A stretch of DNA of 64,000 nucleotides from contig NC_011138.3 of the NCBI RefSeq assembly GCF_000020585.3, forward strand, positions 1,965,136 to 2,029,135. Reading direction: 5' to 3'. This stretch comes from Alteromonas mediterranea DE. GTDB taxonomy: Bacteria; Pseudomonadota; Gammaproteobacteria; Enterobacterales; Alteromonadaceae. The notes under the pieces were generated by a model. That model was not told the origin of the DNA and did not search any database. It worked only from the letters and a program-made list of their open reading frames with translations. Below, in pieces: positions 12,513 to 23,836 of the stretch; the first letter of the stretch is position 1; each line of letters opens with the position of its first letter. The position numbers and the translations under genes were made by a program.

Positions 12513-12923
12513 CTATTTGCCAAAGGCAAGTTTAGTGTCAGCATCGCGCAACAGGAAAAGTGCAAAGCACGCGCCCCACATAGGCCATGCGGCAAAAAAC
12601 AGTAAGTGATTAAAGGCATCTAAATACTGCGGGAAAGAAGAAAGGGTAGACCCGCCGTGAAGAATGAAAATAAGACCATAGGTGTACTTTTTAGCTAGCC
12701 CTGCTACAAAGGCTAAAACTAAGGCTAGTTGCAATGCACCCATTACGTAGACAGCCATTTCAGGCACGCCGCCAATGCCATAAAATTTTTCAAAAATGGC
12801 CATGCCGTGTGCGGGGTTAACAAATTTGTCTAGGGTCCAAACAAACATAACGATAAAAATAGTGACGCGAAGAGAAAGTAACGACCATTCCAGTCGCTTT
12901 TGAATATTGGTGTTGTTTTGCAT
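12513..12923 (-). CDS. DoxX-like four-helix membrane protein
   Basis: A 136-residue inner-membrane protein with four predicted spans (about residues 17-35, 58-77, 82-100, 105-124) and the DoxX-like beginning of a helix followed by a DKFVNP loop. Members of this broad family are small quinone- or redox-associated membrane proteins, mostly uncharacterised. A TetR-type palindrome lies 37 bases upstream of its ATG, so it may be repressed by a TetR protein encoded elsewhere. Function not determinable from sequence. Confidence 0.72.
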   Translation of the reverse strand: MQNNTNIQKRLEWSLLSLRVTIFIVMFVWTLDKFVNPAHGMAIFEKFYGIGGVPEMAVYVMGALQLALVLAFVAGLAKKYTYGLIFILHGGSTLSSFPQYLDAFNHLLFFAAWPMWGACFALFLLRDADTKLAFGK

Positions 12924-12959: not shown

Positions 12960-12971
12960 GAACGACCGTTC
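12960..12971. promoter_or_regulatory. TetR-type palindrome GAACG-N2-CGTTC
   Basis: A perfect inverted repeat GAACGACCGTTC lies in the divergent region between the DoxX-like gene and the TonB receptor, inside an AT-rich promoter stretch. Many TetR-family operators have the form GAACG-N2-CGTTC. A second copy occurs upstream of another small membrane protein gene at 55084-55095. Confidence 0.5.
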
Positions 12972-13089
12972 AAAACAAAAATTTCAATTAATTTTGTTTT
13001 ATTTGATATTTATTAAAAATTAAATGTACTGAAATTTTTTCTTATGCGTATCGGTCTTGTCGAACAAGAAATATAAAACGGACTCGTTA

Positions 13090-15429
13090 ATGAAAAAGAT
13101 AACCGGCCTTGCCGTTAGCACACTCACACTTGCAATAAGTCAATCTCTGTTTGCCCAAGACGTGGCAGACATAGAAGTCGTTGAAGTTAAAGGGAACCAA
13201 CAGAGCCTGCGTACGCTAAATCCAGGTGATAACACGTTAAAAGGTATATTTGGTGACAGTTTAACGGCAGCACAAACGCCACGTGCTGTTACATCGCTTT
13301 CGGCCGAGGCCATTGAAGCACTGAATATTAACGACTTACACGATATTGTGAAAGCGGCGCCTAATGCCTATGCATCCAGCGGATTTGGTACGCCAAGCCT
13401 TCCAAGCATACGAGGGCAGTTAGGTGAACTCTTTCAAGACGGCGTGCGTCGTCAGGCCGGTAATAATGGTTTTGGGTTGCCATTGTCATTTAATAGCGTA
13501 GAGCAAATTGACGTAGTGAAAGGGCCATCGCCGGTGCTGTTTGGAAGTACACAGCGCAATGGCGGCTTTGTTAACTTGCAAACCAAGGTTGCGCCTACTA
13601 GTCAAAGTAGCGGTAAAGTTACCCTTCGCGCCGGGCGCTGGGATCAGTATTCAGCTCAAGTAGACTACGGCACGGCGATAGAAGAAGGTAAAAGCGGTAT
13701 TCGCTTCAGTGCGGAATATTTAGATCACGGCAGCTTTTATGACTTTGCCGAGCGTGAAAGTACCAACTTGTTCGTGGCCTACCGCTATACCCCAAGCAAT
13801 GCATTAACGTGGGATATCAGTGCGGAATATTACGATACAGATTATCCAGATAACGCAGGCATCAACCGTCCAACTCAAGACCTTATCGATAATGGGGTTT
13901 ATATTACAGGGCAAGGCACTCAGCCAAATGGCAGCACAGTAGCTGGTGCAGGGGCTATTATTTCACCTACGGGTGAAGTAGTTATTCCTCGAAGCCGTGT
14001 ATTTACCAACCCAGATGACATTAACGGTGCTGAAACTACGGTTATCCGAAGTAACGTAGAATACAAACTGGCCGATAACGCGACCCTTCGCAACATTACG
14101 TATTATCAGTACTTAGAGCGCGAAGAGATTGCGCAAAATAGCTTTGTGGAAATTATTGACGGTGCCGATACGTTTGAAAACCGCACTGAACTTGATTACC
14201 AGTGGAGCGATAGCCAACTTACTACCATAGGCTTGGCGCTTCGCTATAACGACGTGCTGGGCTACAGCCAATTTACCACCGAAGCTGACAACCCTATTGA
14301 TTTAACTGGCCCGATTTCAAACCGAGTTATACCGCTTACCGATGCACAAAAAGCCCGTTTGGTTGAATTACGCCCAGGCGTATTTGTGTCGCCTGGGGCG
14401 CAATATGACCTCGATGGCGATGGTAACGGCGATTTTAACCTGTCAGACACCACTGATTCTACATCGTGGCAAACTGGGTTGGCGCTACAGCAACGCTCTA
14501 CATGGACAGACAAGTTCTCAACCATTGCTGGCGTTAGAGTAGATTATTACGATGTTGAAGCCCGCGACCCTCTAGCGCCTGAGGGAGTAACGGCAGCGTC
14601 TGATACCTATAGCGATACCTTAACTAGCTATCAGTTAAGCGCAGTTTACAAACTCACCGGTGACATCAACGTATATGCTGCGTTTTCCGAAAACGATGCT
14701 ACGTCAAACAGTATGGCGGGGGGCACAGTATTGGGCGGTAATAATGAAATTAACCCGCTTAATTTTGCTACCGAAAATACCTTGTACGAAGCAGGGGTAA
14801 AATACGCGCCAAACAGCCAATGGTATGCTGAAGCGGCAGTGTTTGAGCAAACCCGTAGCTTACGCAATCGCGATGGCAGCAATAGCGGGGTTAAGACCAG
14901 CGGCTTTGAACTGCAAATGTTCTATCAAGGCAATGATATATGGGTAAATGCTGCTTACAGCTACTTAGACGCTCGCTTCGATGACTCTGCAGCGTTTCAA
15001 GGCACGGCTCAGGTGATAGACGCGTTTGATAACAGTCGCTCAGATATTATTGAGGGGACGGGAGTGGGATCGCCGACGTTTGCCGCGTTTCCTGCATCAA
15101 ATACTCGCGTACAAGGTATTCCGCCTCAAATCGCGTCTATTAATGCCGGCTGGCAAATTACCGACAGTTTCCAAGTGGGTGCCAGCGCGCTTTACACCAA
15201 ATCTTTCCCGTTAGACTTTTTACAAACCGTGCATATTCGCGACCAATATACGGTTGATTTAAACGCCGACTATCAGGTTACCGATGCGCTTCGCGTTCGC
15301 CTAGATGTAATGAACATCACCGACGAAGAAAACTGGCAGCCACTTTTTGAAGGCGGGTATTTTGGTGCGACTCTAGTCATGCCAAACGTGCCTCGTCACG
15401 CTCAAATTACCATGCAATACGCGTTCTAA
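13090..15429 (+). CDS. TonB-dependent outer-membrane receptor, head of the ynj-like operon
   Basis: A 779-residue outer-membrane transporter: signal peptide MKKITGLAVSTLTLAISQ...FAQ, TonB-box-like IEVVEVKG, plug domain with PSIRGQLGELFQDGVRR and VEQIDVVKGPSPVLFGS, then a 22-strand barrel ending in an aromatic residue (ITMQYAF). The plug resembles siderophore receptors, but the ligand cannot be read from sequence. ATG at 13090 opens a proper signal peptide; a TTG 33 bases earlier would add a hydrophilic tail. The stop lies 16 bases before the next gene, so it probably imports the compound handled by the downstream ABC importer. Confidence 0.9.
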   Translation: MKKITGLAVSTLTLAISQSLFAQDVADIEVVEVKGNQQSLRTLNPGDNTLKGIFGDSLTAAQTPRAVTSLSAEAIEALNINDLHDIVKAAPNAYASSGFGTPSLPSIRGQLGELFQDGVRRQAGNNGFGLPLSFNSVEQIDVVKGPSPVLFGSTQRNGGFVNLQTKVAPTSQSSGKVTLRAGRWDQYSAQVDYGTAIEEGKSGIRFSAEYLDHGSFYDFAERESTNLFVAYRYTPSNALTWDISAEYYDTDYPDNAGINRPTQDLIDNGVYITGQGTQPNGSTVAGAGAIISPTGEVVIPRSRVFTNPDDINGAETTVIRSNVEYKLADNATLRNITYYQYLEREEIAQNSFVEIIDGADTFENRTELDYQWSDSQLTTIGLALRYNDVLGYSQFTTEADNPIDLTGPISNRVIPLTDAQKARLVELRPGVFVSPGAQYDLDGDGNGDFNLSDTTDSTSWQTGLALQQRSTWTDKFSTIAGVRVDYYDVEARDPLAPEGVTAASDTYSDTLTSYQLSAVYKLTGDINVYAAFSENDATSNSMAGGTVLGGNNEINPLNFATENTLYEAGVKYAPNSQWYAEAAVFEQTRSLRNRDGSNSGVKTSGFELQMFYQGNDIWVNAAYSYLDARFDDSAAFQGTAQVIDAFDNSRSDIIEGTGVGSPTFAAFPASNTRVQGIPPQIASINAGWQITDSFQVGASALYTKSFPLDFLQTVHIRDQYTVDLNADYQVTDALRVRLDVMNITDEENWQPLFEGGYFGATLVMPNVPRHAQITMQYAF

Positions 15430-15445
15430 GCGCTAAGGATTATTG

Positions 15446-17599
15446 ATGTTTAAAAAGATAGCGCTACTAGGGGTTATTGCAGCCGCCATTTTTAGTTTTT
15501 TTTATTTTGATTTAAATAGCTATTTAACCCTCGAGGGAATGAAAGGTTCCCTCGATACGTTCAAAAGCCAAATTGCAGACAATCCGGTTTTAAGTATTGG
15601 GGTGTTCTTTGCTATTTATGTCGCAGTAACCGCACTTTCACTGCCAGGTGCAGCTATTCTAACTTTGGCCGCGGGTGCGCTTTTTGGTCTTGTACAAGGT
15701 TTAGTTATTGTGTCGTTTGCTTCCAGCGTAGGGGCTACGCTGGCGTTTTTAGTATCCCGTTTTATCCTGCGTGACACCGTACGCAATAAATTTAAAGAGA
15801 AGCTAAAGAAAATAGATGAAGGCGTTGAGAAGCAGGGGGCATTTTACTTGTTCACTTTGCGCTTAGTGCCCGTATTCCCCTTCTTTTTAATAAACTTATT
15901 AATGGGCTTAACCTCCCTAAAGACCTGGACATTTTACTGGGTAAGCCAGATAGGCATGCTTGCCGGCACCGCTGTTTATGTAAACGCAGGTACGCAACTG
16001 GCCCAAATTGACAGCCTGTCAGGCATCGTATCGCCTGGACTTATCTTTTCGTTTGTATTGCTAGGTATCTTCCCGTGGATAGCTAAAGGTATAGTGGCGC
16101 TTGTTAATCGTCGCCGTGTTTACAAAGGCTACAACAAACCAAAGAAATTTGACCGTAACCTAGTGGTTATCGGTGCCGGTGCAGGTGGATTGGTTACCAG
16201 TTATATTGCGGCAGCGGTGAAAGCGAAAGTAACGCTGGTAGAGGCTGGGGAAATGGGGGGCGATTGTCTTAACTATGGCTGCGTACCCAGTAAAGCCATT
16301 ATAAAAACCGCTAAAGTGGCGAACCAAATGCGTCATGCCGATAACTATGGTTTGGAGCCAGTATCGCCTGCGATGTCCTTTAAAAAAGTGATGGCACGTG
16401 TACACGAAATAATTGCGGCTATTGCGCCTAATGACAGTGTAGAGCGTTACACCAGCTTAGGTGTTGATGTAGTGAAAGGCTATGCAAAGATCATCGATCC
16501 CTGGACAGTAGAGATTAAAAAGAATGATGGCGGCACCCAAACGCTAACCACGAAAACCATTGTTGTTGCTACCGGTGCTGCGCCTTTTGTTCCTGACCTG
16601 CCGGGTATTGAACAAAGTGGTTATGTTACGTCTGACACCTTATGGTCTAAATTTGCTGACCTTGAAGAATCGCCAAAACGGTTAATCGTGTTGGGTGGTG
16701 GGCCTATTGGCTGTGAGCTGGCGCAGGCCTTTTCTCGCCTGGGTAGTAAGGTTACGCAAGTTGAACGTGCACCACGGCTAATGGGTAAAGAAGACGCTGA
16801 TGTTGCTGAATATGCAGAATCTGTACTTCGTGAAAGCGGGGTAAATGTTCTGACATCCCATGATGCCCTTCGTTTTGAGCGACAAAACGGTGAAAAGGTG
16901 TTGGTGGTGGCGAAAGAGGGGGTTGAAAGCACCATCGCTTATGATGAGGTAATTATCGCGGTGGGCCGTAAGGCCCGTTTAAACGGGTTTGGTCTTGAAG
17001 ACTTGGGAATTAAGTTTGACAGAACTATCGACACTGACGAATACCTGCAAACGCTGATGCCAAATATCTTTGCAGCAGGTGATGTGGTAGGACCGTATCA
17101 GTTTACTCACGTGGCCGCACATCAGGCATGGTACGCGGCGGTTAATGCACTTTTCGGCACATTTAAGAAGTTTAAAGTGGACTATCGCGTTATTCCTTGG
17201 ACAACCTTTATCGACCCAGAAGTGGCAAGGGTAGGTCTCAGTGAGCGAGATGCTGCAGAACAAGATATTGATGTGGAAGTAACTCGCTACGAATTTGCCG
17301 AACTCGATCGAGCCGTGGCCGAGAGTGCGCGTAAGGGTTTCATTAAGGTGCTTACGCCGCCAGGTAAGGACAAAATACTGGGCGTTACTATTGTTTCTGA
17401 GCACGCTGGTGATTTGCTTGCTGAGTTTGTTATTGCCATGAAACACGACCTAGGGTTAAACAAAATACTAGGCACTATCCACGCCTATCCAACTTGGGCT
17501 GAAGGCGCAAAGTACGCAGCGGGGAATTGGAAGCGGGCTAATGCACCTGAAAAACTTTTAGGCTTTGTTGAGAAATTCCACACATGGCGCAGAGGGTAA
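15446..17599 (+). CDS. TVP38/DedA-like membrane domain fused to mercuric-reductase-like flavoprotein
   Basis: A 717-residue two-part protein. Residues about 1-225 are a TVP38/TMEM64 (VTT) membrane domain with signature LSLPGAAILTLAAGALFG and several spans. Residues 235 to the end are a class I pyridine nucleotide-disulfide oxidoreductase: FAD motif GAGAGG, redox dithiol CLNYGC (C274/C279), NAD(P) motif GGGPIGCE, FAD motif FAAGDV and the C-terminal HAYPTWAE base pair. It lacks the extra N-terminal HMA domain and the C-terminal Cys pair that MerA uses to bind mercury, so mercury is unlikely as substrate. ATG is preceded by AAGGAT at 5 bases. E. coli carries separate TVP38 proteins (YdjX, YdjZ) next to ynjBCD. 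Confidence 0.9.
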   Translation: MFKKIALLGVIAAAIFSFFYFDLNSYLTLEGMKGSLDTFKSQIADNPVLSIGVFFAIYVAVTALSLPGAAILTLAAGALFGLVQGLVIVSFASSVGATLAFLVSRFILRDTVRNKFKEKLKKIDEGVEKQGAFYLFTLRLVPVFPFFLINLLMGLTSLKTWTFYWVSQIGMLAGTAVYVNAGTQLAQIDSLSGIVSPGLIFSFVLLGIFPWIAKGIVALVNRRRVYKGYNKPKKFDRNLVVIGAGAGGLVTSYIAAAVKAKVTLVEAGEMGGDCLNYGCVPSKAIIKTAKVANQMRHADNYGLEPVSPAMSFKKVMARVHEIIAAIAPNDSVERYTSLGVDVVKGYAKIIDPWTVEIKKNDGGTQTLTTKTIVVATGAAPFVPDLPGIEQSGYVTSDTLWSKFADLEESPKRLIVLGGGPIGCELAQAFSRLGSKVTQVERAPRLMGKEDADVAEYAESVLRESGVNVLTSHDALRFERQNGEKVLVVAKEGVESTIAYDEVIIAVGRKARLNGFGLEDLGIKFDRTIDTDEYLQTLMPNIFAAGDVVGPYQFTHVAAHQAWYAAVNALFGTFKKFKVDYRVIPWTTFIDPEVARVGLSERDAAEQDIDVEVTRYEFAELDRAVAESARKGFIKVLTPPGKDKILGVTIVSEHAGDLLAEFVIAMKHDLGLNKILGTIHAYPTWAEGAKYAAGNWKRANAPEKLLGFVEKFHTWRRG

Positions 17600-17604
17600 T
17601 AGAG

Positions 17605-18510
17605 GTGAAAACTACTCTAACCACTTTTATGCGTAAAATCGCCCTATTGTTACAAGGTATTACAGTGTCACGTGGTATTTCAGCATCGCGTAGAATTGCA
17701 GCAGGCAGCATAGTGCTGTTTGCTGCAAGCGTAAGTTTTTACGCTAGCGCTGAAGAAGGTTTGCATAGCACGTTCGATAATTTGTTAAGTAAGTATGTGA
17801 CGCCGATTTCCAACGGCGCAAGTACACAGGTAAATTACGATGGGTTTAAAAAAGAGCAAACAAAGCTTAACGAGTATTTAGCGCGCTTATCTAAGGTAGA
17901 GCAAAGTAAATTTGATTCGTGGGATAAGGATAAACAGCTCGCTTTTCTTATTAACGCTTACAACGCCTATACCATTGCGCTTATTTTAACTGAGTATCCT
18001 GATATAGCGTCGATACGGGATTTAGGAAGTTTCTTTTCTTCGCCTTGGAAAAAAGAAATAGCGCCGCTGCTTGGTGAAACTCGCACGTTAGATGAAATTG
18101 AACACGAACTTATTCGCGGCACAAACCAAACCACAAAAACTTATAATGAGCCTCGCATTCATTTTGCGGTGAATTGCGCCAGCGTAGGTTGCCCGGCGCT
18201 ACGTGAAGAAGCATACACAGGGAATAAACTAGATGAACAGTTAGAGGCGCAAACAAAACGATTTTTGTCTGACAGCGCTCGTAACAAAATGAGTGGCGAC
18301 ACACTCTATTTGTCTAAAATATTCGACTGGTACAGTGAGGACTTTGAAGGTAAATACGGCGAGTGGCGCGACACGTCAACGCTCAACGAGTTTATCTTGC
18401 TGTATAAAGACGCAATGCGGTTAACTGAAGCGCAAGTTTCAGTGTTAAAAAATAACACTGCTGATATTGAATACCTTAATTATGATTGGGCGCTTAATGT
18501 TGCACAGTAG
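17605..18510 (+). CDS. Secreted DUF547 protein
   Basis: An exported protein of about 301 residues with a DUF547 domain. A hydrophobic signal/anchor (AAGSIVLFAASVSFYASA) leads into the domain, whose marks are LAFLINAYNAYTIALI, SPWKKE, TLDEIEHELIR and the conserved FAVNCASVGCPAL with two cysteines, probable catalytic or structural residues. The biochemical role of DUF547 is not established. GTG at 17605 is chosen because AGAGGG precedes it; an ATG at 17584 inside the upstream gene and an ATG at 17629 are alternatives. DUF547 next to TVP38 and mercuric-reductase-like genes is a recurring association, suggesting a shared pathway. Confidence 0.85.
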   Translation: MKTTLTTFMRKIALLLQGITVSRGISASRRIAAGSIVLFAASVSFYASAEEGLHSTFDNLLSKYVTPISNGASTQVNYDGFKKEQTKLNEYLARLSKVEQSKFDSWDKDKQLAFLINAYNAYTIALILTEYPDIASIRDLGSFFSSPWKKEIAPLLGETRTLDEIEHELIRGTNQTTKTYNEPRIHFAVNCASVGCPALREEAYTGNKLDEQLEAQTKRFLSDSARNKMSGDTLYLSKIFDWYSEDFEGKYGEWRDTSTLNEFILLYKDAMRLTEAQVSVLKNNTADIEYLNYDWALNVAQ

Positions 18511-18604
18511 CGTTAACAGTAGTGCCCTGAATGGCTCCCAATTGAGTACAGGGGGGCAGGCCGAGCTGCAGTTTCGTACAAATAGCCCGTTGTTCTTTTC
18601 CACT

Positions 18605-19822
18605 ATGCAGGTATTCCTTTTTACCTGCATAGTCATTTTGTCTGTGCTTGTTGTAGCTCAACCTGCAATGGGCAACACCAACGATGAAACACCCTCAGAA
18701 AACTCACCTCTTGTTCGATTTCATGCCTGGGGTGGTAGCGCCCAGGTTAATGGCTACCTTCAGTGGGTGGCACTTCAAGTTAAAACCCGCTTTAACATAG
18801 AGCTTCAACACGTGAAGCTAGCTGACACCAGTGATGCAGTGTCTCGTGTACTGGCAGAAAAAGCAGCGGGTAATCATAACAATGGCAGTGTGGATCTTAT
18901 ATGGATAAACGGCGAGAACTTCGCTGCAATGAAAAAGCACGGATTACTGAGTGCCTCGTGGGTAAGTGAACTTAATAATTTCAGTCTCACTAATCCTGAG
19001 GAAAACTCCGCTATGACCACAGACTTTGGTGAGCCCACTTTAGGCATGGAAGCACCTTGGGGGAAAGCGTCTATGGTGTTTTACTATCGTAGTGAACACA
19101 TGAAGTCGCTAGGGCTTATGGCGCCGAAAACCACTGAACAGCTTCTACGATTTAGCCAAAAAGCCCCGGGTAGATTCACTTACCCTGTACCTAGCGACTA
19201 TTTGGGCATCAGCTTTATTAAATATGCTGCGCTGGCGCTAAACAAAGACAAACACAGCGTGTTTTATCAACCGGTAAGTGAGGCATCGCTAAAAACTGTT
19301 TTGCCCCCTTTATGGAAGTACCTGGATGCGCTACACCCTACCATGTGGCAGCAAGGCGATCATATGCTAAGACACGCCTCTCAGCTCCAGCGATTGGTGG
19401 GGGCGGGCGAGCTTTCATTGGCTTTTTCTTTTACCGCATCGGAAATCCCCTCTGCGGTCACACGCTTCGATTTACCTGAAGATGTGCGCACTTACGCTAT
19501 GCAAGACGGAAGCTTAGCAAACGTGCACTTTGTAGGGTTAACCTATAACTCGGGAAGCAAAGCGGCGGCGAAAACCGTTGTGAATTTCTTGATTTCACCC
19601 CAAGCACAAGCCAAGAAGCAGGAAATAACCGTATGGGGCGATGACACCGTGCTCGATATGACGACCCTCACTAATGCCCAACAAGCATTATTTAAAAAAG
19701 AGGCAGTGCATCCATCGGCACTCGATAAATCGAAGCCGACCGCTCTATTGGCCGAGCCTCATGCAAGCTGGACCGACGCGCTGCGTGATGCATGGTACGA
19801 ACGTTACGGAGCGCGTTACTAA
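18605..19822 (+). CDS. ynjB: YnjB-like ABC transporter substrate-binding protein
   Basis: Periplasmic solute-binding protein of the YnjB type, about 405 residues. The signal peptide is FLFTCIVILSVLVVAQPAMG. Mature motifs include FHAWGGSAQVNGYLQW, VDLIWINGENFAAMK, APWGKASMVFYYRSE and LVGAGELSLAFSFTASE, matching E. coli YnjB. The start is uncertain: ATG at 18605 gives a good signal peptide but has no ribosome-binding site, and the frame is open back to 18467 inside the DUF547 gene. Its stop overlaps the permease start by one base. The ligand of the YnjBCD system is unknown. Confidence 0.88.
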   Translation: MQVFLFTCIVILSVLVVAQPAMGNTNDETPSENSPLVRFHAWGGSAQVNGYLQWVALQVKTRFNIELQHVKLADTSDAVSRVLAEKAAGNHNNGSVDLIWINGENFAAMKKHGLLSASWVSELNNFSLTNPEENSAMTTDFGEPTLGMEAPWGKASMVFYYRSEHMKSLGLMAPKTTEQLLRFSQKAPGRFTYPVPSDYLGISFIKYAALALNKDKHSVFYQPVSEASLKTVLPPLWKYLDALHPTMWQQGDHMLRHASQLQRLVGAGELSLAFSFTASEIPSAVTRFDLPEDVRTYAMQDGSLANVHFVGLTYNSGSKAAAKTVVNFLISPQAQAKKQEITVWGDDTVLDMTTLTNAQQALFKKEAVHPSALDKSKPTALLAEPHASWTDALRDAWYERYGARY

Positions 19823-21567
19823 TGTTCGCGCAATTTACGCGCATTATGCGCTGGTGTTTACTGCTATTGCTTTGCATACCCGTATTAGCAGGGCTTGTGG
19901 GCGTAATTTTTCCTGCGTTAGGTTATTTCCCTGCCATAGGCGCGAACAGCTTTTCACTAGACGTTTTTAGAACGCTATTTGCTCTTGATGATATTTGGCA
20001 CATGGTGTGGCTTTCGCTTTTCACCGGGGTGGGGTCAACATTGCTGGCGATGGCTGGCGCGTTTTTATTATTAGCTACCTTTTATCAGTCTTCGTGGCTT
20101 GAAAAAGTGCAAGGGTTGCTTAGCCCGTTTCTGGTGTTTCCTCATGCGGCAGCGGCCATTGCTTTATTGTTCGTATTAAGTCCTTCAGGTATTTTTGCTC
20201 GTTTCATGGTGCTAGGCGGTAATGACGGCCCCCATATAGCAGGCAGCAGCTTTTTCCCTTATGATGAGTTCGGCTTTAGCGTACTGTTGGCGTTAAGCCT
20301 TAAAGAGTTGCCATTTATTATTTTAATGGCCCTTAGTGTGATGTCTCAGCCGCTAATAAAAAAGAAACTGTTGGGCTACGTAAACGTGGGGTCTTCCCTT
20401 GGTTATTCACCCACAGCAAGCTTTTTCAAACTTGTAGCACCAAGTATATTTACGCAAATCAAGCTGCCCATACTTGCGGTGTTGGTGTTCGCCACCTCAA
20501 ACGTTGAAATTCCGCTTATACTTGGCTCCAATAACCCGAGTACCCTAGCCGTTGCCATTATGCATTGGTTTAATCATATTGATTTGTTCATGCGCTTACT
20601 GGCCAGCGGTGCAGCGGTGCTTCAGGTGGCTGTGAGTGGGGTAGCGTTACTCTTATTTTTCGCCGTTGAACATTTTTTTATGTACTTAGGCAAACAGAGC
20701 CTGATGAAAGGCCGCAGGCACGGTGCCGATGCCCTAGTTCGAGGCATTGGATACGGCATTGTTTCACTCTACGTGATATTGATAAGCACAGTGATCTACG
20801 CGGTTGTAATGTATTCAATAGCAAAACATTGGTCTTTTCCTGCGCTGCTGCCTGAAGGGGTTACTTTCTTACACTGGGGCACCGCGTTAGAGGCACTGGC
20901 AACACCGCTTGTAAATAGCCTATTACTTGGCATGTTAGTGAGCACATCGGCAATGTTACTGGTACTCTTTACGCTAGAAAGTGAACAGCTAAAGCCGGCG
21001 GCTAGACATGCCAACAGCGCGTTTTCAATATCGCTTTTTTTACCACTATTAGTGCCCGGAGTGGCATTTTTATACGGGTTAGTGTGGTTCCAGCAGCTTG
21101 TTTTGCAAAACGCCGTATGGTTTCACACCTACATTGCGCACATGGTGTATGTTGTTCCCTATGTGTTTTTGTCTATGGCGGTAGCCTATCGCAAGTTCGA
21201 CAATCGCTATGCCATGGTTGCGCAGAGTTTAGGGAAAACGCCGTGGCAGGTGTTCTATCGCATTAAGCTACCTCTAATGCTTAACGCTATATTGGTGGCG
21301 TGGGCATTAGGGCTAGCTATAAGTTTTAGTCAATATTTACCCACCTTGTTAGCTTCGGGGGGCACCATTGCGACTATCACGACGGAAGCTGTCGCCTCGG
21401 TATCGGGTAGCAGTACACGCTTAACCGCCGTATACGTTATTATTCAGGGGGCAATGCCTTTGATTGGCTTTGTGATTGCGTGGTATTTACCTGGCGTTTT
21501 AATGAAAAACCGCGGCGCTAGTATCAAAGAAAAAAACAAACGTAGAGCAGTATTACATGGCACTTAG
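19822..21567 (+). CDS. ynjC: YnjC-like ABC transporter permease (fused double permease)
   Basis: Inner-membrane permease of 581 residues with about 12 spans, formed from two binding-protein-dependent permease halves in one chain. EAA-type loops are visible in both halves: one near residue 190 (VGSSLGYSPTASFFKLVAPS) and one near residue 480 (AQSLGKTPWQVFYRIKLP). These dock onto the ATPase. ATG overlaps the ynjB stop (TAATG), and the end overlaps the ATPase gene by 11 bases, so the three components are translationally coupled. Family relatives import inorganic ions or thiamine-like compounds, but no substrate is fixed for YnjC. Confidence 0.9.
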   Translation: MFAQFTRIMRWCLLLLLCIPVLAGLVGVIFPALGYFPAIGANSFSLDVFRTLFALDDIWHMVWLSLFTGVGSTLLAMAGAFLLLATFYQSSWLEKVQGLLSPFLVFPHAAAAIALLFVLSPSGIFARFMVLGGNDGPHIAGSSFFPYDEFGFSVLLALSLKELPFIILMALSVMSQPLIKKKLLGYVNVGSSLGYSPTASFFKLVAPSIFTQIKLPILAVLVFATSNVEIPLILGSNNPSTLAVAIMHWFNHIDLFMRLLASGAAVLQVAVSGVALLLFFAVEHFFMYLGKQSLMKGRRHGADALVRGIGYGIVSLYVILISTVIYAVVMYSIAKHWSFPALLPEGVTFLHWGTALEALATPLVNSLLLGMLVSTSAMLLVLFTLESEQLKPAARHANSAFSISLFLPLLVPGVAFLYGLVWFQQLVLQNAVWFHTYIAHMVYVVPYVFLSMAVAYRKFDNRYAMVAQSLGKTPWQVFYRIKLPLMLNAILVAWALGLAISFSQYLPTLLASGGTIATITTEAVASVSGSSTRLTAVYVIIQGAMPLIGFVIAWYLPGVLMKNRGASIKEKNKRRAVLHGT

Positions 21568-22195
21568 TTTAGAAAAACTGGTTATCTCTCGTGCAGACAA
21601 TGTGCTGTTGAACGTAAACGCATGCGTAGAAAAAGGGCAAGTTTTAACAGTGATGGGGCCAAGTGGAGCGGGCAAGTCTACCTTGCTGCAAGCCATTGCC
21701 GGGCAACTTTATGAGCCATTTAGTGTTAGCGGCATTATTAAAATCGACAATAACGTGATTAACCGTAAACCCGCCCATTTGCGTAAAGTGGGCATGATGT
21801 TTCAAGACGCCTTGTTGTTTGAACATATGACGGTAGCTGAAAACATAGCGTTTGCCATGCCAAAAACTAGCCACAGTAATCCGCACGCTAGGATGGAGGC
21901 CATTAACACCATGTTGAGCGCTGTCGAATTAGAGAGCATGGGGCAGCGTGGTGTAAATACGCTTTCAGGCGGGCAGCAGTCAAGAGTGTCGTTATTAAGA
22001 ACGCTAGCTTCGGCGCCGGATGTGGTTTTGCTAGACGAGCCCTTTAGTAAGCTTGACCTTGCGCTTCGTGGGCAAATTCGAAGCTGGACATTCGAGCAGC
22101 TTAAAGCGCACAATATTCCCGCCGTGCTGGTTACCCACGACAAAGAAGACGCCATTGCTGCTGGCGGCCAAATAATTGAGTTATCGCCATGTTAG
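21557..22195 (+). CDS. ynjD: YnjD-like ABC transporter ATPase
   Basis: Cytoplasmic ATP-binding subunit of 212 residues that powers the YnjB-YnjC importer. Walker A GPSGAGKST (about residues 33-41), Q-loop MMFQDALLF, signature LSGGQQSR, Walker B VVLLDEPF and H-loop VLVTHDKEDA are all intact. The start lies within the last codons of the permease gene and the stop lies within the start of the phosphatidyltransferase gene, so all four genes from ynjB onward are packed without gaps. Confidence 0.93.
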   Translation: MALSLEKLVISRADNVLLNVNACVEKGQVLTVMGPSGAGKSTLLQAIAGQLYEPFSVSGIIKIDNNVINRKPAHLRKVGMMFQDALLFEHMTVAENIAFAMPKTSHSNPHARMEAINTMLSAVELESMGQRGVNTLSGGQQSRVSLLRTLASAPDVVLLDEPFSKLDLALRGQIRSWTFEQLKAHNIPAVLVTHDKEDAIAAGGQIIELSPC

Positions 22196-22845
22196 ATGCA
22201 AAAATTACCCCGTTTATAAAGCCACTATTAAAACCCCTGATTAGCTTTCTTGATCAACAGGGCGTTGCGCCGAACCACGTGACCCTTGCCGGGTTTGTCC
22301 TTGGCTTACTGGCTGTTCCCTTTATTATTCTTAACTGGTGGTGGGGGGCGCTTTGCTGCATCATTTTCAATCGCGTTTTGGATGGTATAGACGGCGAGCT
22401 AGCCCGCTACCAGAAAAGTAGTAGTAGCGCGGGTGGATATTTGGATATCTGCTTAGACTTTCTATTTTACGCGTCGATACCTTTGGCGTTTGGCATCGCA
22501 GACCCTATCAACTGGGGTATCCCTGCTATGGTGTTATTAGCCACGTTTATTGGTACAGGAAGTAGTTTTTTAGCTTTTGCTATCGCCGCAGAAAAGTTTC
22601 AGATAGCCAGGCCTCAGTTTGCCAATAAAAGCTTTTATTACATGCAAGGGCTAACCGAGGGAACTGAAACTATTTTAGTGTTTTTGGCATTTTGCATCTG
22701 GCCGCAATATTTCGCTGAAATGGCTTATATTTTTGCAGCAGCCTGTGCGGTTACTGTGGTGACGCGTATTGCAGGAGGGTTCAGCACCCTCGATAAGGTA
22801 GAGCGCAGCGTAAAGGCTAAAAACGCTCGCGAGCATCAAGCTTAA
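22189..22845 (+). CDS. ynjF: YnjF-like CDP-alcohol phosphatidyltransferase
   Basis: Inner-membrane enzyme of 218 residues and about six spans, moving a phosphatidyl or similar group from a CDP-alcohol to an acceptor alcohol. The family signature D-G-x2-A-R-x8-G-x3-D-x3-D is present as VLDGIDGELARYQ followed by GGYLDICLDF, with the spacing slightly shifted by IDGE. It overlaps the ATPase gene by 7 bases. E. coli has ynjF in the same gene group, though there ynjE lies between ynjD and ynjF; ynjE is absent here. The physiological acceptor is unknown. Confidence 0.9.
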   Translation: MLDAKITPFIKPLLKPLISFLDQQGVAPNHVTLAGFVLGLLAVPFIILNWWWGALCCIIFNRVLDGIDGELARYQKSSSSAGGYLDICLDFLFYASIPLAFGIADPINWGIPAMVLLATFIGTGSSFLAFAIAAEKFQIARPQFANKSFYYMQGLTEGTETILVFLAFCIWPQYFAEMAYIFAAACAVTVVTRIAGGFSTLDKVERSVKAKNAREHQA

Positions 22846-22984: not shown

Positions 22985-23836
22985 TTGGATAATACATCAG
23001 CTATTCGCTTAAGCATGTTTCTTGGCATATTCATGTGCATGGCGCTGCTAGAAGCGCGTTATCCAGCGCGTAAAGCGGTGCTCGATAGAAAAACACGCTG
23101 GGTGGGTAACTTGTCTATGGTCGTGTTGGGCGCATTGATATCTCGGGTACTGTTGCCCGCCACTTTAGTCGGTGTGTCGGTGTGGGCGCAGCAAGAAGAC
23201 TTTGGGCTTTTTAATGTAATGTTAGGCTATGCGCAAAGCGGGTCATCGTTAATAGGAATAAGTGATGATGTAGAAAGCAGCGGCGTCGTATTCGCCGGCA
23301 TAGTGACTTTAAGTGTAATACTGCTAGATATGATCATCTATTGGCAGCATAGGCTGTTTCATACCGTACCTCTATTATGGCGTTTTCACAAAATGCATCA
23401 TGCTGATAGTCATGTGGATACCACCACAGGCCTTCGCTTTCATCCCGTTGAAATTGCTATCAGCCTAGGCGTAAAGGCCGCTGCTGTGGCACTGTTAGGC
23501 ATACCTGCTGTTGCTATTGTTATCTTTGAAGTGGCACTTAATGGCTTTGCGCTGTTTAATCATGCCAATATACGACTATCGCAAAAGTGGGATGACAGAG
23601 TGGGGCGGGTCTTAATAACGCAACGCCTTCACCGTATTCACCATAGCCAGGCCAAAGCAGAGTCAAATTCAAACTATGGGTTCAGCGTGTCGTGGTGGGA
23701 TCGCTTGTTTAATAGTTTTACTCCACGGGCACAATACAGCGATGAAACGTTACCTATTGGGCAAAAAGACGTACCTGCAGTAAAAGGAAATGCGTCTATT
23801 AGGGCATTGCTAATACAGCCATTTAAAAATAAGTAG
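22985..23836 (+). CDS. Sterol desaturase/fatty acid hydroxylase-family membrane protein
   Basis: An integral-membrane non-haem di-iron protein of 283 residues. Histidine clusters of the family are visible: HRLFHTVPLLWRFHKMHH (HxxxH and HxxHH), then HPVEIAI, NHANI, and HRIHHSQ (HxxHH). These bind two irons for hydroxylation or desaturation of a lipid chain. Start is probably TTG at 22985 with AAGAGAG about 7 bases upstream; the first ATG in frame is ten codons later. It follows the ynj-like operon by 139 bases on the same strand and may have its own promoter. Substrate unknown. Confidence 0.85.
   Translation: MDNTSAIRLSMFLGIFMCMALLEARYPARKAVLDRKTRWVGNLSMVVLGALISRVLLPATLVGVSVWAQQEDFGLFNVMLGYAQSGSSLIGISDDVESSGVVFAGIVTLSVILLDMIIYWQHRLFHTVPLLWRFHKMHHADSHVDTTTGLRFHPVEIAISLGVKAAAVALLGIPAVAIVIFEVALNGFALFNHANIRLSQKWDDRVGRVLITQRLHRIHHSQAKAESNSNYGFSVSWWDRLFNSFTPRAQYSDETLPIGQKDVPAVKGNASIRALLIQPFKNK

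Follow-up and report, generated by a model that had tools for sequence, protein, structure and literature searches.

An operon of Alteromonas mediterranea DE with a YnjBCD importer and a VTT-flavoprotein fusion, and its possible link to arsenosugar genes

In the genome of Alteromonas mediterranea DE, seven genes join an outer-membrane receptor, a membrane flavoprotein, a DUF547 protein, the ATP-binding cassette (ABC) importer YnjBCD and the CDP-alcohol phosphatidyltransferase YnjF in a single run. They lie within a stretch of 64,000 nucleotides (contig NC_011138.3, positions 1,965,136 to 2,029,135), which is called here the window. Conservation strongly supports that this operon is one functional module. 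Relatives of its flavoprotein gene are found in other genomes next to genes of arsenosugar biosynthesis, and the importer gene ynjB and the arsenosugar gene ArsS exclude each other. The operon is therefore read, tentatively and at somewhat less than even confidence, as part of a membrane system with two branches, one that makes arsenosugars and one, represented here, of the import type. The protein families are known ones; their combination and context are undescribed in the literature searched, and the link of the operon's parts to arsenosugar genes is new here.

Gene content of the operon

The seven genes occupy positions 13090-22845 of the window, all on the + strand. The intergenic gaps are, in order, 16 bases (13 from a TTG), -16, 88 (94 from the ynjB ATG), -31, -11 and -7; four of the six are negative, so that the run has four overlaps. 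A preliminary description, made from the sequence alone, had given the same position, order, strand and overlaps, and open reading frame (ORF) coordinates and domain searches bear these out. It had overlooked an eighth gene of the FA_hydroxylase family, which starts 139 bases past the YnjF gene on the same strand. The genes are:

13090..15429, + strand: TonB-dependent outer-membrane receptor of 779 amino acids (ATG at 13090, ORF from 13057); Pfam Plug and TonB_dep_Rec_b-barrel over cut-off
15443..17599, + strand: VTT (DedA/TVP38-type) membrane domain fused to a class I pyridine nucleotide-disulfide oxidoreductase; Pfam VTT_dom, Pyr_redox_2 and Pyr_redox_dim, with alignment, motif counts and tree
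17584..18510, + strand: DUF547 protein, likely exported; Pfam DUF547, 99.1 bits
18599..19822, + strand, with an ATG at 18605: YnjB solute-binding protein; NF008633, 434.1 bits against a cut-off of 203
19792..21567, + strand: YnjC permease; hydropathy scan and 29% identity to E. coli YnjC
21557..22195, + strand: YnjD ATPase; ABC_tran, 111 bits, and 44% identity to E. coli YnjD
22189..22845, + strand: YnjF, CDP-alcohol phosphatidyltransferase; CDP-OH_P_transf, 47.8 bits against a cut-off of 22
22985..23836, + strand: FA_hydroxylase-family membrane protein, the eighth gene; Pfam, 100.9 bits, and co-conserved

Conservation of the gene set

In a sample of 119 genomes of the order (E-value 0.001 for the ynjB and DUF547 searches), ynjB is found in 42, including two weak matches (G008 and G097), and DUF547 in 33. 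The run fusion-DUF547-ynjBCDF exists in the window genome (G000) and in all three other sampled members of its genus (G031, G106 and G382). It is also found in one of four other sampled genera of the family (G090) and in three of four sampled genomes (G011, G076 and G094) from one genus of another family. The fourth genome of that genus (G110) has the fusion and ynjBCDF but lacks DUF547, the receptor and the hydroxylase. The hydroxylase is present in seven of the eight other complete loci and missing in G090. A genome of another order in the same class (G290, locus L102) carries on one strand the hydroxylase, a DoxX-like gene, the fusion, DUF547, the receptor, and ynjB, C, D and F. Since the same parts exist there in a new order, this argues for a functional bond more strongly than an inherited block would.

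The receptor was searched at E-values up to 1e-60 in 52 genomes, namely the 45 fusion genomes defined below and seven further genomes with related genes. It is found in six, the window genome counted, and lies inside the cluster in all six. Counted from coordinates, ynjF is at the fusion locus in 15 of the 21 genomes (among these 52) that have it, and DUF547 is within 2 kb of the fusion in 21 of the 45 fusion genomes. Two genomes (G128 and G200) have ynjF at the fusion locus yet no ynjB. Because it recurs in other genomes, the gene set is more than chance. The preliminary description had proposed a single pathway, and this idea gains from the conserved neighbourhood. The set is not present everywhere: ynjB and the fusion were not found in G006, G052 and G072, which represent three further genera of the family.

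In three loci of one genus (L050 3752-15861, L051 4007-16200 and L052 4499-16479), fusion-DUF547-ynjBCDF-hydroxylase is located between the genes for the large and small chains of ribonucleotide reductase, all on one strand. These genes were assigned by Pfam for L050 and by similarity for L051 and L052.

Arsenosugar genes near the fusion

A sample of 299 genomes of the phylum was searched with E-value thresholds of 1e-100 for the fusion, 1e-15 for DUF547 and 1e-20 for ynjB, giving matches in 80, 59 and 31 genomes, respectively. Among the 80, 45 have a nearly full-length match with an identity of at least 50% and are called fusion genomes. A fragment (G133), a second copy in G391, fusions of 37% identity (G237, G325 and G327) and flavoprotein-only rows were dropped.

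Genes that recur in the neighbourhood of the fusion encode ArsS (TIGR04167), two glycosyltransferases (TIGR04282 and TIGR04283) and a methyltransferase resembling ArsM. It is reported that ArsS catalyzes a step of oxo-arsenosugar synthesis (Cheng et al. 2021, as cited in PMC12159101). ArsS and TIGR04283 directly flank the fusion in G191 and G232, and G223 has a run of fusion, DUF547, ArsS and ArsM. By BLAST, the run is fusion-DUF547-TIGR04282-like-ArsM-like in G248, and G365 has the fusion followed by DUF3047-like, TIGR04283, TIGR04282-like, ArsS and ArsM-like genes. Against the arsenite methyltransferase model (cut-off 263 bits), the ArsM-like protein of L151 passes with 352, while those of L116 and L163 score 181 and 160, below the cut-off.

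Of the 299 genomes, 112 have ArsS above its cut-off. Among the 45 fusion genomes the number is 23, and in 11 of these 23 ArsS lies no more than 10 kb from the fusion (binomial p about 1e-18, with an assumed chance of 0.0067 each and genomes taken as independent). Similarly, ynjB exists in 14 of the 45 and is within 10 kb of the fusion in 10 of these 14, the window genome included. Co-occurrence in the same genome is stronger for ynjB (14/45 fusion genomes vs. 17/254 others, p 1.8e-5) than for ArsS (23/45 vs. 89/254, p 0.046). Because the latter is weak, the arsenosugar case rests on closeness. The preliminary description had overlooked this link.

In three loci of one genus in another order (L118, L127 and L162), the gene after the fusion is a distinct radical SAM gene of about 320 amino acids, which is not ArsS.

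Possible import in place of synthesis

Among the fusion genomes, ArsS is found in none of the 14 with ynjB but in 23 of the 31 without it (Fisher p 1.9e-6). The exclusion is also seen by genus (0/10 vs. 14/18, p 1.5e-4) and within the class (0/14 vs. 8/12, p 3.2e-4), and in all 299 genomes ArsS is absent from the 31 with ynjB. This is the pattern expected if the transporter stands in for the biosynthetic route. In the window genome, ArsS and TIGR04283 are not over cut-off, TIGR04282 has no match and an ArsM-like gene was not found (one query, E-value 1e-15). With ArsM, ArsS and both glycosyltransferases missing by the searches used, this genome would import the compound instead of making it.

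The glycosyltransferases are found near ynjB as well. In the phylum sample, five of the 31 genomes with ynjB have TIGR04283 over cut-off, at about 2.4 kb from ynjB in G164, 3.2 kb in G199, 10 kb in G343 and about 23 kb in G131, and on a different contig in G374. The ynjB loci named below come from the best 80 of 599 matching stretches (one genome per species), which were ranked by a Halomonas-type query, so that their proportions are biased. At the BLAST threshold, TIGR04283 and TIGR04282 are each found in 17 of these 80, the fusion in readable form in 12 and ynjF in 18; ArsS and ArsM are in none within the stretch examined. Halomonas, Vreelandella and Chromohalobacter have an operon ynjB-ynjC-ynjD-TIGR04283-TIGR04282-fusion with neither ArsS nor ArsM at the locus (L168-L170, L172, L174, L176, L183, L184 and L190). 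Similar loci have broken frames (L171 and L173) or no ynjD match found (L175). Both transferases are also near ynjB in L201 (Arenibaculum), L216 (Defluviimonas) and L224 (Caenispirillum). Five of the six transferases of these three loci pass the NCBIfam cut-off, and the other, its start clipped in the analysis, scores 179 against 182.

In Yoonia, Octadecabacter and other Rhodobacteraceae (L203, L215, L223, L227, L232, L239 and L242), ynjF and a hydantoinase/oxoprolinase-type gene are beside ynjBCD; this family type is taken from a homologue in L138.

The VTT-flavoprotein fusion

The VTT domain of the window fusion, which places it in the family of the DedA/VTT lipid flippases, scores 88.1 against a cut-off of 33.9. 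An alignment of the fusion to MerA (5x1y) and to lipoamide dehydrogenase (1ebd) shows that it keeps the redox CX4C pair (GGDCLNYGCVPSK in the window fusion). The HPT histidine is the acid-base of disulfide reductases. At this position the fusion has Tyr, as in MerA (HAYPTWAE vs. HAHPTLGE in 1ebd), and so lacks the catalytic His of lipoamide dehydrogenase and glutathione reductase. Counted over 62 fusions, CX4C is present in 61, and the HPT-histidine position is occupied by Tyr in 60, by His in none and by Asn in one; it is masked in one. One gene is counted twice among the 62 (L112 and L153, both from G365), and L112 is omitted from the tree of 61. L150 (G232, in-frame TGA), L171 and L173, L166 and L167 (37% fusions), and L073 (two ORFs) are omitted from both counts and tree.

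A C-terminal vicinal Cys pair is a feature of MerA. It is absent from the fusions, whose last 60 residues are free of Cys in 61 of the 62, the window fusion included, and have a single Cys in the other. The window fusion scores 372.5 with the MerA model TIGR02053, below the cut-off of 454.45. Because Tyr replaces His and the C-terminal pair is absent, the fusion, as judged from its sequence, cannot be called a proven MerA, nor is it a normal disulfide reductase. For its substrate, a metalloid-thiolate or an oxo-arsenical is a reasonable inference, as a MerA-like active site without the His base would suit a metalloid-thiol or an oxo-arsenical group more than it would an ordinary disulfide. In the tree, the window protein belongs to a clade of 25 (support 88/87, moderate and under the starred level) that also contains the ArsS/ArsM-linked fusions L109, L151 and L163.

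In G023 (L073 15227-17352), the VTT and flavoprotein parts exist as two neighbouring ORFs and are not fused.

Other proteins and a proposed mechanism

The only PDB sequence match of the receptor at an E-value of 0.001 or lower is the Fe(III)-pyochelin receptor (1xkw, E-value 8.2e-11, residues 58-254), and its score with the siderophore-receptor model TIGR01783 is 125.2, below the cut-off of 223.5. The DUF547 protein has one N-terminal hydrophobic segment, and its predicted model (predicted local distance difference test score, pLDDT, 84.7) is without a clear fold match. YnjB, YnjC, YnjD and YnjF have 38, 29, 44 and 51% identity, respectively, with their E. coli counterparts. The predicted model of YnjB has a pLDDT of 91.4, and the genes for the permease and the ATPase adjoin ynjB. 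A crude hydropathy scan finds 16 hydrophobic segments in YnjC, which is weakly recognised as an ABC permease (Pfam 20.6 bits, below the cut-off of 26.4) and is related to E. coli YnjC. In YnjF, the CDP-alcohol phosphatidyltransferase motif D-x2-DG-x2-AR...G-x3-D-x3-D is intact at residues 65-90. The FA_hydroxylase protein is OlsE-like but scores far under the OlsE cut-off (83.5 vs. 475), and three histidine boxes are found in all eight proteins of this kind, the window's included.

We infer an arsenosugar-like substrate, its reduction and a lipid step. The preliminary description had suggested that a compound is imported through both membranes and then undergoes redox or lipid-linked chemistry, which would be the frame of such a pathway. 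The receptor would take an organic compound through the outer membrane, and YnjB would bind it for pumping through the inner membrane by YnjC and YnjD. DUF547 may act outside the inner membrane, binding or preparing the compound or a thiol form of it. At the inner membrane, the VTT-flavoprotein would carry out a reduction with NAD(P)H, flavin adenine dinucleotide (FAD) and the CX4C pair, using a MerA-like active site with no His base. YnjF would couple the alcohol, once imported, with CDP-diacylglycerol; the lipid may then be finished and moved by the hydroxylase and the VTT domain. In its most specific form, this scheme would make the operon a dedicated system for uptake of arsenosugars (or close organoarsenicals) and their incorporation into the membrane, with the MerA-like flavoprotein acting on the arsenical, YnjF producing an arsenosugar phospholipid and the operon taking the place of ArsM/ArsS synthesis in bacteria that encounter arsenosugars of other organisms. 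So narrow a version is doubtful.

Comparison with known systems

In E. coli K-12, the genes ydjX-ydjY-ydjZ-ynjA-ynjB-ynjC-ynjD-ynjE form one row, and ynjF is read from the opposite strand. The preliminary description had compared the operon with this stretch; its row and the absence there of receptor and flavoprotein hold, while the opposite strand of ynjF was left unsaid. The two systems share homologous YnjBCD and YnjF proteins, and each encodes a VTT protein upstream. Unlike the window operon, the E. coli stretch has no matches found for receptor, flavoprotein, DUF547 or hydroxylase and has the AhpD-like YnjA, the ferredoxin-type YdjY and the sulfurtransferase YnjE.

Arsenosugar biosynthesis clusters (ArsM, ArsS, TIGR04282 and TIGR04283) resemble the operon in that the fusion and DUF547 adjoin some of them, and some of these fusions are in the window clade. 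The window genome differs in having the importer and receptor instead, with none of the four synthesis genes found. The Halomonadaceae operon found here likewise has ynjBCD and the fusion in one run but includes the two glycosyltransferases, and receptor, DUF547 and hydroxylase are unmatched at its locus. MerA shares with the fusion the class I flavoprotein family, the CX4C pair and Tyr at the catalytic-His position; it differs by its C-terminal Cys pair, and the window fusion is below the MerA cut-off and fused to VTT.

A survey of DedA proteins (PMC10127716) names PF07992/PF02852 as the domains most often fused to DedA proteins of COG0398; the available part of that survey gives neither a tested function for such a fusion nor an operon of this kind. 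In the open-access literature, no paper on the function of YnjBCD, YnjF, DUF547 or the VTT-flavoprotein fusion was found by title or abstract start. The preliminary description had called the operon undescribed, which holds for this literature.

Weighing the readings

Several results weigh against the arsenosugar link. Lineage may be partly behind the exclusion of ynjB and ArsS, and lineage effects are still in the figures above. ArsM-like genes (one query, E-value 1e-15) and TIGR04282 are in none of the eight window-type genomes, and ArsS and TIGR04283 are over cut-off in none of the six of these that were searched. The genome-level co-occurrence of fusion and ArsS is weak, as mentioned before; both ArsS and ynjB are missing from eight of the 45 fusion genomes, and 12 of the 62 fusion loci are without any labelled neighbour. 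Relatives of arsB or arsC were found in none of 180 loci examined, and an arsR-like gene in three. The E. coli ynj genes adjoin AhpD-like and rhodanese genes, the fold comparison of YnjB ties many ligand classes so that the model does not fix the ligand, and the C-terminal Cys pair of MerA is missing. Note also that the arsenosugar label of TIGR04282 and TIGR04283 comes from NCBIfam, and that, in the parts of the literature found here, ArsS is the one member of this set reported as tested.

The same single module may instead serve a sulfur or thiol compound, the fusion being a membrane thiol-redox enzyme of several pathways, with arsenosugar synthesis as one of them. This is possible rather than probable. 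It would explain the AhpD-like protein and rhodanese beside ynjBCD in E. coli-type loci, and a locus (L085) composed of an AhpD-like gene, the fusion and ynjBC. The FAD half of the fusion is near the lipoamide dehydrogenase cut-off (389 vs. 409), and the available part of PMC10127716 connects such fusions with lipoamide and glutathione. In DUF547, CX4C is invariant, within a motif H-X4-C-X4-C-P found in all 36 proteins examined, the window's included. A thiol-redox enzyme is harder to reconcile with Tyr in place of the acid-base His in 60 of the 62 fusions, and with ArsS, ArsM-like and the two transferases recurring as neighbours outside the enteric type.

Import of an ordinary nutrient (of the phosphosugar, glycoside, 2-aminoethylphosphonate, thiamine or polyamine class) with a lipid/redox side branch would make the arsenosugar neighbours coincidental. 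It is unlikely, as the co-localisations of the fusion with ArsS (11/23) and ynjB (10/14) are far above chance, no thiamine pyrophosphate (TPP) or other riboswitch is found over Rfam gathering scores within the window, and no Fur-box upstream of the receptor is better than background. A chance run of envelope genes on a shared transcript, with no common pathway, is improbable: parts do exist separately elsewhere (ynjB by itself in L053, L054 and L060; ynjBCD by rplI/rpsF/dnaB, apart from the other parts, in L055-L057 and L086; fusion and DUF547 without ynjB at the locus in L100 and L101), but the receptor is in the cluster in all six genomes where it was found and the complete set recurs reordered in L102.

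Flanking features

One further gene upstream may be an accessory of the operon:

12513..12923, - strand: small membrane protein, weakly DoxX-like and divergent; DoxX, 19.8 bits, below the cut-off of 23.6

Its homologues adjoin the cluster in L047, L048, L119 and L102. The divergent promoter region between this gene and the receptor contains a palindrome, GAACGACCGTTC, at about 12960-12975 of the window. G031 also has a palindrome there, which is not seen in the other four aligned genomes; it is a possible repressor site. A perfect 12-bp inverted repeat (18602-18633) spans the ynjB ATG. Since its pairs are broken in the nearest relative (L047), the repeat is probably a chance one. In a genome of the same genus, an ArsR-family-like gene (L119 18706-18954), which may be unrelated, lies about 3.5 kb from the receptor.

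Significance

The neighbourhood link to ArsS gives a concrete hypothesis for YnjBCD, YnjF, DUF547 and the VTT-flavoprotein, and the ynj genes occur even in E. coli K-12. Whether or not the proposed substrate is right, the change in the flavoprotein active site and the exclusion of ynjB and ArsS keep the module testable. If the import reading is true, the orphan YnjBCD importer would have its first assigned substrate class, and organoarsenical cycling would gain an uptake side together with a candidate enzyme for arsenosugar phospholipids.

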